44,685 nucleotides of DNA from Betaproteobacteria bacterium (GTDB lineage Bacteria > Pseudomonadota > Gammaproteobacteria > Burkholderiales > SG8-39), in the NCBI GenBank assembly GCA_016868105.1, contig VGIA01000007.1, forward strand, positions 1-44,685, in the 5' to 3' direction. The notes under the pieces were generated by a model. The model did no database searches, was not told where the DNA came from, and saw nothing but the letters and a program-made list of their open reading frames with translations. Positions 17,420-21,233 of the stretch are shown in pieces. How positions within the stretch are numbered: the stretch's first letter is position 1; each line of letters opens with the position of its first letter. The position numbers were made by a program, and so were the translations under genes.

Positions 17420-18856
17420 ATGAAACCCACGCTCCAGTTCCGGCTCTCGCAGCACCTGAGGCTGACCCCGCAGCTGCAGCAGTCCATCCGCCTGCTGCAG
17501 CTCTCGACGGTCGAGCTCAACCAGGAGATCGAGCGCCTGCTGATGCAGAACCCGATCCTCGAGCGCGAGGATGGCGAGGCCGATGCGCCGGCGGGCGAGC
17601 GCGCGCCCGCCCCGGAGCGGCCGCGCGGCGAGGAGCCCCGCGCCGCCGGATCCGAGCCCGGCGAGGCGCGCCCCGAGGCCGAGGAGATGGCGCAGTACTC
17701 GGCCGCGCCGTGGCGCGGCGCGGAAGACGGCGACGACGAGGGCGAGCGCGGCCAGGGGACGGCGCAGATGCCGACGCTGCGCGAGCACCTCAACAGCCAG
17801 TTGACGCTGGTCCATCTCGGGCTGCGTGACCGCGCGCTGGTGTCGATGCTGATCGACGCGCTGGACGACGACGGCTACCTCACGCAGCCGCTGGAGGAGA
17901 TCGCCGCCATGCTGCCCCCGGGGGCGGAAGCGGGCCTCGAGGAGCTCGCCATCGCGCTGCGGCACCTGCAGAACCTGGAGCCGGCCGGCGTCGGCGCGCG
18001 CTCGCCTTCGGAATGCCTGGCATTGCAGCTGCGCGCGCTGGCGCCGGGCGCGCACGGCGCGCGCTGCCACGCGGTGGCGCTGGTGGTCGCCGAGCAGCAC
18101 CTGGAGCTGCTCGCGGCGCGCGACTTCGCGCGGCTGAAGAGCGCCGCCGGCGCCAGCGACGAGGAACTGCGCGCGGCGCAGCAGCTGATCCGCCGCCTCA
18201 ACCCGCGCCCGGGGGCGTCGTTCTCGCGCATCGACTCGCCGTACGTGATCCCGGACGTGATCGTGCGCAAGACGCGCAATGCCTGGAAGGCGACGCTCAA
18301 CCAGCAGGCGGTGCCGCGCCTGCGCATCAACCGCTTCTATGCCGAACTGACCGCCGGGCAGAGGAGTGCCGGCGGTTCGCTCTCGACCCAGCTGCAGGAG
18401 GCGCGCTGGCTGATCAAGAACGTGCGCCAGCGCTTCGACACCATCCTGCGCGTGTCGCAGGCGATCGTCGACCGGCAGCGCAGCTTCCTCGAGCACGGCG
18501 AGGTGGCGATGCGGCCGCTGGTGCTGCGCGAGATCGCCGAGACGCTCGGCGTGCACGAAAGCACCATATCGCGCGTCACGACGCAGAAGTACATGGCGAC
18601 GCCGCGCGGCACCTTCGAGCTGAAGTACTTCTTCGGCAGCCATGTCGCCACCGACGGCGGCGGGGCGGCCTCCTCGACCGCGATCCGCGCCCTGATCAAG
18701 CGGCTGGTGGCCGCAGAGGACGGGCACGATCCGCTGTCGGACTCGGCGATCACGCGCATACTGGGCCAGCAGGGTATCGTGGTGGCGCGGCGCACGATTG
18801 CAAAGTACCGGGAATCCCTGCAGATTCCCCCTGTCAACCAGAGAAAGAGCCTGTGA
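17420..18856 (+). CDS. rpoN: RNA polymerase sigma-54 factor
   Basis: Sigma-54 directs RNA polymerase to GG-N10-GC promoters and needs an AAA+ activator. The 478-residue protein has region I (LQFRLSQHLRLTPQLQQSIRLLQLS, Gln/Leu-rich, activator contact), an acidic region II to about residue 120, a core-binding domain, the helix-turn-helix ETLGVHESTISRVTTQKYMATPRG and the RpoN box ARRTIAKYRESLQIP near the C-terminus. The chosen ATG at 17420 gives MKPTLQFRL; the longer track ORF is a shadow of lptB. Downstream, where hpf is normally found, only a remnant is seen. Confidence 0.97.
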   Translation: MKPTLQFRLSQHLRLTPQLQQSIRLLQLSTVELNQEIERLLMQNPILEREDGEADAPAGERAPAPERPRGEEPRAAGSEPGEARPEAEEMAQYSAAPWRGAEDGDDEGERGQGTAQMPTLREHLNSQLTLVHLGLRDRALVSMLIDALDDDGYLTQPLEEIAAMLPPGAEAGLEELAIALRHLQNLEPAGVGARSPSECLALQLRALAPGAHGARCHAVALVVAEQHLELLAARDFARLKSAAGASDEELRAAQQLIRRLNPRPGASFSRIDSPYVIPDVIVRKTRNAWKATLNQQAVPRLRINRFYAELTAGQRSAGGSLSTQLQEARWLIKNVRQRFDTILRVSQAIVDRQRSFLEHGEVAMRPLVLREIAETLGVHESTISRVTTQKYMATPRGTFELKYFFGSHVATDGGGAASSTAIRALIKRLVAAEDGHDPLSDSAITRILGQQGIVVARRTIAKYRESLQIPPVNQRKSL

Positions 18857-18872
18857 GAACCGGGGGCAACAG

Positions 18873-18983
18873 ATGAACCTGAACCTGAGCGGCCACCAGT
18901 TCGAGCCGGCGCCGCGCTATAATCCGCGCCCTCGCGCGCCATGGCGCGCCTTGCACAAGCCGCCCCGCCGGCCCCAACCATGA
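18873..18983 (+). pseudogene. Truncated hpf (ribosome hibernation factor) remnant
   Basis: A 36-codon ORF begins MNLNLSGHQFEPAPRYN, 16 nt after rpoN, with GGGGG about 6 nt before its ATG. The first 11-16 residues resemble the N-terminus of HPF/RaiA proteins (M-N-L-N-I-T/S-G-H-H then a T-P-A-I-R-like stretch). Established knowledge: hpf lies between rpoN and ptsN in most proteobacteria. After this the frame is Arg/Pro-rich and unlike HPF, so I infer a large internal or 3' deletion. The ORF ends in TGA overlapping the ptsN ATG (ATGA), which would allow translational coupling. A TATAAT hexamer at 18918-18923 lies inside it. Confidence 0.6.
18918..18923 (+). promoter_or_regulatory. TATAAT hexamer, possible ptsN promoter
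   Basis: A perfect -10 consensus in very GC-rich surroundings, 56 nt upstream of the ptsN ATG and inside the hpf remnant. No clear -35 sits 16-18 nt upstream (CCAGTT-like). If used, it would give ptsN-hprK-rapZ transcription independent of rpoN. Confidence 0.35.
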
Positions 18984-19465
18984 GCCTGGTCGCCAAACTC
19001 CTGCCGCCCTCGAACGTCGTCCTCGGCATGGCGGCGTCCAGCAAGAAGCGCCTGTTCGAGCAGCTGGGCTTTCTGTTCGAGAGCAACCATGGCATCGGCA
19101 AGGGCCATGTGTTCGACAGTCTGTTCGCCCGCGAGCGCCTGGGCTCCACCGGCCTGGGCCAGGGCCTGGCCATCCCGCACGGCCGCATCAAGGGCATCAA
19201 GGAGGCGCTGGGCGCCTTCGTGCGCCTGGAGCAGCCGGTGCCTTTCGACGCCCCCGACGGCAAGCCGGTGAGCCTGGTGTTCGCGATGCTGGTGCCGGAG
19301 CAGGCCACCGAGAAGCACCTCGAGATCCTGTCCGAACTGGCGCAGATGTTCAGCGACCGCGGGCTGCGTGAGGCGTTGGCGCAGGCGCCGGACGCCCAAG
19401 CCCTGCGCCAGCTCATCGCCGATTGGCAGCCGGATGCTCCAGGTCGACGTCGCGCAGCTGCATGA
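18980..19465 (+). CDS. ptsN: PTS IIA-like nitrogen regulatory protein
   Basis: PtsN (EIIA-Ntr) is the terminal phosphoacceptor of the nitrogen PTS and regulates potassium uptake and other targets rather than transporting sugar. I start it at the ATG at 18980 (MSLVAKLLPPSNVVLGMAASSKKRLFEQ), giving 161 residues; the track's earlier ATG adds MARLAQAAPPAPT. The phosphorylated His is in LGQGLAIPHGRIKG, near residue 72. FVRLEQPVPFDAPDGKPVSLVFAMLVPE and HLEILSELAQMFSDR complete the fold. Its 3' end overlaps hprK by 32 nt. ptsP and ptsO (EI-Ntr, NPr) are not in the window. Confidence 0.96.
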   Translation: MSLVAKLLPPSNVVLGMAASSKKRLFEQLGFLFESNHGIGKGHVFDSLFARERLGSTGLGQGLAIPHGRIKGIKEALGAFVRLEQPVPFDAPDGKPVSLVFAMLVPEQATEKHLEILSELAQMFSDRGLREALAQAPDAQALRQLIADWQPDAPGRRRAAA

Positions 19466-20369
19466 AGACAACCGCGAGGCCCTCGCGCTCGAGTGGGTCG
19501 CGGGGCGCGACGGCGCGACGGCGGTGCGGCGCGAAGCCGCGGCTGCGGCGGCGCTGGTCGGCCACCTCAACCTGACCCATCCCAACAGCGTCCAGGTCAT
19601 CGGCGCCTTCGTGGCCGGGCTCGCCGAGCGCTACGACCCGGCCAGGCGCGCCGACTTCGCCGCCCGCCTGATCGCCGCGGCGCCCGCGCTGGTGGTGTTC
19701 GCCGACGGCGTGCGCCCGTTCGCCGAGCTGGTGCAGGCGGCGCAGAAGGCGCACACCCCGGTGCTCGCCTCCGGCGCCTCGGCGGCGCACGTGATCGAGA
19801 AGCTGTCGCGCTACCTCGCCAAGAAGCTGGCCGACATGGTCGAGCGCCACGGCGTGCTCATGGACGTGCTGGGCGTGGGCGTGCTGATCACCGGCGACTC
19901 CGGCGTGGGAAAAAGCGAGCTTGGGCTGGAGCTCATCAGCCGCGGCCACGGCCTGGTGGCCGACGACGTGGTGGAGATCTCGCGCATCGCCCCGACCACG
20001 CTGGAAGGACGCTGCCCGCCGCTGCTCAAGGACTACATCGAGGTCCGCGGCCTGGGCCTGATCGACATCCGCGCCATCTACGGCGAGACCGCGGTGCGCC
20101 CGAAGATGAAGCTGAAGCTGATCGCGCACCTGGAGAGGCCGGCCAAGGGCGCGACCGCCGGCAGCGTCGAGCGCCTGCCGCTGTCGGCCCTTTCGGAGGA
20201 GATCCTCGGGGTCACGGTGCGCAAGGTGGTGATCCCGGTGGTGGCCGGGCGCAACCTCGCGGTGCTGGTCGAGGCCGCGGTGCGCAGCTACATCCTGCAG
20301 CTGCGCGGCGTCGACTCGGCGGCCGAATTCCTGGCGCGCCAGAGGCGCGTCATGGACGCGCAGGAGTAG
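19434..20369 (+). CDS. hprK: HPr kinase/phosphorylase
   Basis: HprK phosphorylates a serine of HPr-type proteins with ATP and can reverse this with phosphate; in proteobacteria it links the PTS to regulation. The 311-residue protein starts MLQVDVAQLHEDNREALALEW at an ATG within ptsN. It has an N-terminal MurF-like domain to about residue 130 and the kinase domain with P-loop GDSGVGKS (about 154-161), GHGLVADDVV and the HprK signature EVRGLGLIDIRAIYG. FLARQRRVMDAQE ends it. The track ORF's extra N-terminal codons are a shadow of ptsN. Confidence 0.95.
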   Translation: MLQVDVAQLHEDNREALALEWVAGRDGATAVRREAAAAAALVGHLNLTHPNSVQVIGAFVAGLAERYDPARRADFAARLIAAAPALVVFADGVRPFAELVQAAQKAHTPVLASGASAAHVIEKLSRYLAKKLADMVERHGVLMDVLGVGVLITGDSGVGKSELGLELISRGHGLVADDVVEISRIAPTTLEGRCPPLLKDYIEVRGLGLIDIRAIYGETAVRPKMKLKLIAHLERPAKGATAGSVERLPLSALSEEILGVTVRKVVIPVVAGRNLAVLVEAAVRSYILQLRGVDSAAEFLARQRRVMDAQE

Positions 20370-20372
20370 CCC

Positions 20373-21233
20373 CTGCAGTTCGTCCTGGTCAGCGGTCTGT
20401 CGGGGTCGGGCAAGAGCATCGCTCTGGGCGTGCTCGAGGACGGCGGCTACTACTGCGTCGACAACCTGCCGGCGACCCTGCTGCTGGAGGTGGCGCAGTT
20501 CCTGGGCGAGGCCGGGCACGAGCGCGTCGCGCTCAGCGTCGATGCGCGCAGCGCGGCGCTCGCCTCGCTCCCGGGCCACCTGGATACGCTGAAGTCGCGC
20601 GGCGTCGATTGCCGCGTGCTGTTCCTGGAGGCGACCTCTGCGGTGCTGCTGCGGCGCTTCTCGGAGACGCGCCGCCGCCACCCGCTCGCCGGCGCCGGCC
20701 TCACCCTCACCGAGGCGATCGAGAGCGAGCGCGCGCTGCTCGCCGGCGTGTCGGGCATGGGCCACCGCATCGACACCAGCCAGCTGCAACCCAAGGCGCT
20801 GCGCAACTGGGTCAAGGACCAGCTGGGCCTGGGCGGCGGCGCGCTCGCGATCACCTTCGAGTCCTTCGCCTTCAAGGACGGCATTCCCCTGGACGCCGAC
20901 TGGGTGGTGGACGCGCGCATGCTGCCCAACCCGCACTACGTGGCGGAGCTGAAGGAACTGACCGGGCGCGATGCGCCGGTGGTCGCGTTCCTCGACGCCC
21001 AGGACATCGTGCAGCGCTTCCTCGGGGATCTGCGCGGCTTTCTCGCACGCTGGCTGCCGGAGGTGGCGCGCGACAATCGCAGCAGCCTCACGCTGGCGGT
21101 GGGCTGCACCGGCGGCCGGCACCGTTCGGTGTACCTCGCCGAGCGCCTGGCGCAGGCCTTCCGCGGCGAATGGCGCGTGCTGGTGCGCCACCGCGGCCTC
21201 GCGAACCAGGACGCCGGCGGAACTTCGGCTTGA
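20373..21233 (+). CDS. rapZ: RNase adapter protein RapZ
   Basis: RapZ binds GTP/ATP and, in enterobacteria, a small RNA, delivering it to RNase E to control glmS; in other proteobacteria its role next to hprK is less clear. The track ORF starts at a GTG after the P-loop. Reading upstream, the frame continues QFVLVSGLSGSGKSIALGVLEDGGYYCVDNLP, which is the true N-terminus. The only start that fits is a CTG at 20373, with AGGAG 6 nt upstream, giving 286 residues as expected. The C-terminal domain shows GCTGGRHRSVYLAERL. A CTG start is rare. The stop overlaps the next gene as TTGA. Confidence 0.92.
   Translation: MQFVLVSGLSGSGKSIALGVLEDGGYYCVDNLPATLLLEVAQFLGEAGHERVALSVDARSAALASLPGHLDTLKSRGVDCRVLFLEATSAVLLRRFSETRRRHPLAGAGLTLTEAIESERALLAGVSGMGHRIDTSQLQPKALRNWVKDQLGLGGGALAITFESFAFKDGIPLDADWVVDARMLPNPHYVAELKELTGRDAPVVAFLDAQDIVQRFLGDLRGFLARWLPEVARDNRSSLTLAVGCTGGRHRSVYLAERLAQAFRGEWRVLVRHRGLANQDAGGTSA

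Follow-up and report, generated by a model that had tools for sequence, protein, structure and literature searches.

The junction between rpoN and ptsN in the draft genome of an uncultured betaproteobacterium raises the question of whether a 36-codon ORF, located where the hibernation factor gene hpf is expected, is a leader kept by selection for the translation of ptsN or what a deletion of hpf left behind. The window analysed (44,685 nt) is the whole contig C7 of draft genome G000 (2.51 Mb, 190 contigs, 96% complete).

The ORF between rpoN and ptsN and its hpf-derived start

All features described are on the forward (+) strand. The sigma-54 gene rpoN (17420–18856) is intact, with the Pfam domains Sigma54_AID, _CBD and _DBD. 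It is followed by the mini-ORF (18873–18983), which runs from an ATG at 18873 to a TGA at 18981–18983 and encodes the product MNLNLSGHQFEPAPRYNPRPRAPWRALHKPPRRPQP. The motif GGGGG (18862–18866), placed 6 nt 5' of this ATG, corresponds to the kept ribosome-binding site of hpf (GGAGG in the sister genome G006); its pairing energy with the anti-Shine–Dalgarno sequence was −8.6 kcal/mol, and that of the hpf site of G006 was −9.5 kcal/mol. The gene ptsN (PTS EIIA-Ntr; 18980–19465; PTS_EIIA_2, E = 8.3e-34) is intact, and its ATG at 18980 overlaps the mini-ORF stop as ATGA. The original prediction of a 36-codon ORF between rpoN and ptsN, with a G-rich site resembling a Shine–Dalgarno (SD) sequence and a stop overlapping the ptsN start, is thus borne out by the sequence. 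Downstream, hprK (19434–20369) is intact, has orthologues in relatives and overlaps the end of ptsN. Directly after the hprK stop, in the region 20370–20430, rapZ shows an apparent CTG start, also present in G006; the start codon is ATG, GTG or TTG in other relatives.

The 36-residue product matched no Pfam family, and it is not an HPF/RaiA protein, as no match to the S30AE domain (about 88 residues) was obtained. Its 5' end is nevertheless related to hpf: the first 33 nt (18873–18905, encoding MNLNLSGHQFE) are identical to hpf of G006 at 31/33 nucleotides and 10/11 amino acids, and are homologous to the intact hpf of G001, G002, G005, G007, G011 and G012. Past the GAG of codon 11 the sequence departs from hpf and continues into the DNA just upstream of ptsN, so that codons 12–36 are not hpf. 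The right side of the junction, CCGGCGCCGCGC (18906–18917, placed by eye against G006), lies just 5' of the ptsN −10 element. On alignment with the junctions of relatives, the resemblance to HPF proposed for the first 16 codons holds for codons 1–11 and not beyond. The first 11 codons, syntenic between rpoN and ptsN, are taken as a true hpf remnant, that is, a gene scar. The preservation of this remnant fits a recent event, in a stretch too short for gauging selection.

Loss of hpf in the genus and in the genome

The junctions of 12 genomes of the genus containing ptsN were compared; G008, from the clade of G000, was left out, since its contig ends in rpoN. In six of the 12, the genomes listed above, hpf is intact. 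In the sister G006 a 7-bp tandem duplication, AGCAAGC, shifts the frame of hpf (G006:C28:3794-4070; L032, L073); the gene may be decaying in the G000/G006 clade, or the G006 draft may carry an error. The gene is absent from G003, G004, G009 and G010, with 29–51 bp left between rpoN and ptsN, and it has also been lost from the operon site outside the genus (G016; L081, L092). A tree of LptB, RpoN, PtsN and HprK placed G000 with G006 and G008, and then with G007. From the junction states and this placement, at least three separate losses of hpf from the rpoN–ptsN site appear to have occurred within the genus (G000; G003 and G004; G009 and G010). Compared with the lptB-rpoN-hpf-ptsN-hprK-rapZ operon of the related Betaproteobacteria G007 and G005, G000 agrees in gene order and in the start of hpf, and likewise has the ptsN promoter block and a ptsN start without an SD, but its hpf is deleted after codon 11.

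The HPF/RaiA family is described as common to many bacterial lineages (PMC10901736). An S30AE gene was present in all 60 relatives of the first survey, and among the 46 genomes of the family with a completeness of 90% or more it was undetected in G000 only. No S30AE domain (PF02482) was found anywhere in the G000 genome, even at E ≤ 10, in agreement with the proposed loss of hpf; no other hpf or raiA is detectable in the rest of this 96%-complete draft. The same search rejected a divergent hpf elsewhere. Members of the genus without the operon hpf keep another S30AE gene, at one syntenic place in G003, G004, G009 and G010; in G009 this second gene adjoins a gene resembling an Fe-S oxidoreductase. 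In G000 the 228 bp before the start of the corresponding gene (contig 99) contain no S30AE sequence, so this candidate was discarded. A third S30AE type, that of G008, was likewise rejected, its surroundings being represented in G000 by matches of 78 bp and 29 bp only. The gene for RsfS is present in G000. A total absence of S30AE proteins from G000 is likely, as judged from profile searches of the draft. A literature search on hpf gene loss found no report. The genomes with a clean loss (G003, G004, G009, G010 and G016) resemble G000 in lacking hpf and in keeping the ptsN −10 block; they differ in that no hpf remnant was seen in them and that another S30AE gene is kept elsewhere, whereas none is detectable in G000.

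The ptsN upstream region and the ATGA overlap

Codons 16–21 of the mini-ORF cover the block TATAATCCGCGCCCTC (18918–18933), composed of a −10 element and a GC-rich discriminator. TATAAT precedes ptsN in 12/12 genomes of the genus, with or without hpf, and is present in 35/53 upstream regions, where shuffled sequences gave 0.7%. The spacing between this hexamer and the ptsN ATG is 12–14 nt in most members of the genus, 24 in G009, 35 in G006 and 56 in G000. The motif TATAATNCGC occurs 12 times in the G000 genome, and the backward control gave no occurrence; one copy lies 11 nt 5' of a tRNA-Arg gene and others close before gene starts, including those of ORFs reading, by eye, as argS and prfB. 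Several of these sites (L148–L159; e.g. L151, L152 and L158) are 6–20 nt before start codons. Such proximity is suggestive of near-leaderless transcripts from TATAATNCGC sites. With respect to a sigma-70 promoter of ptsN, a conserved −10 at a fitting distance was found, and no −35 was recognised, there being no promoter-like hexamer pair in 18700–19100. Because of this missing −35, we infer the promoter function from conservation of the block and from its recurrence before other genes, and TATAATCCGCGCCCTC would be part of an active ptsN promoter. By pairing energy, no SD was found before ptsN in the members of the genus tested; the value for G000 was −1.7 kcal/mol.

A palindrome, GCGCGCCATGGCGCGC (18930–18980), absent from G006, contains an in-frame ATG at 18941. 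This alternative start (18941–18979) could extend the N-terminus of PtsN by 13 residues (MARLAQAAPPAPT). The hairpin at the ptsN start is no more stable than those of shuffled sequences.

It had also been proposed that hpf, reduced to its first codons, is still joined to ptsN by ATGA. The remnant and the loss of hpf stand; "still joined" is wrong, because in the six intact relatives hpf never touches ptsN and stops 13–45 nt before it. In most relatives ptsN starts with ATG AGC, and therefore TGA is built in. Random deletions from hpf codons 4–30 to the ptsN −10 were made in silico in the six intact relatives; in five of these genomes 33% of the deletions left the hpf frame ending at the ptsN ATGA, and in the sixth, G007, 0% did so. 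Given the built-in TGA, this chance rate of about one third and the gaps in intact relatives, the overlap needs no selection. Unlike the overlap, the hpf-derived 5' end of the mini-ORF exceeds chance expectation.

Origin of the mini-ORF

The mini-ORF is most probably a deletion scar lying over a kept promoter block, with ptsN on its own short-leader promoter without an SD. A deletion that began at codon 12 of hpf and ended about 12 nt 5' of the ptsN −10 would have removed the gene except for 11 codons and its ribosome-binding site. Transcription of ptsN would start from its own conserved promoter, the −10 of which falls inside the scar ORF. As elsewhere in the genus, the ptsN message would have a short leader and be translated with no Shine–Dalgarno sequence. 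The 36-codon frame and its ATGA end would be by-products of the deletion, making this a chance ORF. Such an explanation draws on the remnant homology, the absence of hpf, the conservation of the block, the lack of an SD and the chance rate of the overlap. Against it count the well-preserved ribosome-binding site and first codons of hpf and the missing −35, and it rests on one genome, a draft in 190 contigs.

Selection for translation of ptsN through a leader ORF, as originally predicted, is considered unlikely. Ribosomes would load at the old hpf site, translate the mini-ORF and re-initiate at the ptsN ATG, so that PtsN would be made from the rpoN transcript. As ptsN lacks an SD, coupling on a read-through rpoN transcript is mechanically possible, and the strong SD kept before the mini-ORF, while ptsN has next to none, and the exact ATGA overlap are what translationally coupled leader ORFs with stop/start overlap would display. 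Unlike such leaders, the mini-ORF is not conserved, its frame and overlap being absent from the other 11 junctions of the genus, and it is known from one genome. Its 3' two thirds overlie the promoter block, whose constraint has a different cause; the overlap is what chance would produce in about a third of deletions; intact-hpf relatives have no ATGA join, and G003, G004, G009 and G010 manage without any leader ORF. An assembly or binning artefact, with hpf present in the organism and missing from the draft, is also given little probability. The fragmentation and 96% completeness of the assembly would allow it, but the junction is internal to a 44.7-kb contig and flanked by intact rpoN and ptsN, the hpf of the sister G006 is also broken, and other lineages too have lost hpf at this site; we infer that the deletion is real. 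It is very improbable that a betaproteobacterium with a 2.5-Mb genome both truly lacks any HPF/RaiA and has recruited the scar as a leader ORF that is translated ahead of ptsN, itself without an SD, with PtsN output following translation of the rpoN transcript.

The deletion scar illustrates that the remains of a gene can imitate a regulatory leader ORF, and the junctions compared document repeated loss of hpf from the rpoN–ptsN operon within one genus. If the absence of S30AE is real, the G000 lineage would be a natural case in which to examine how a bacterium lives without HPF/RaiA.
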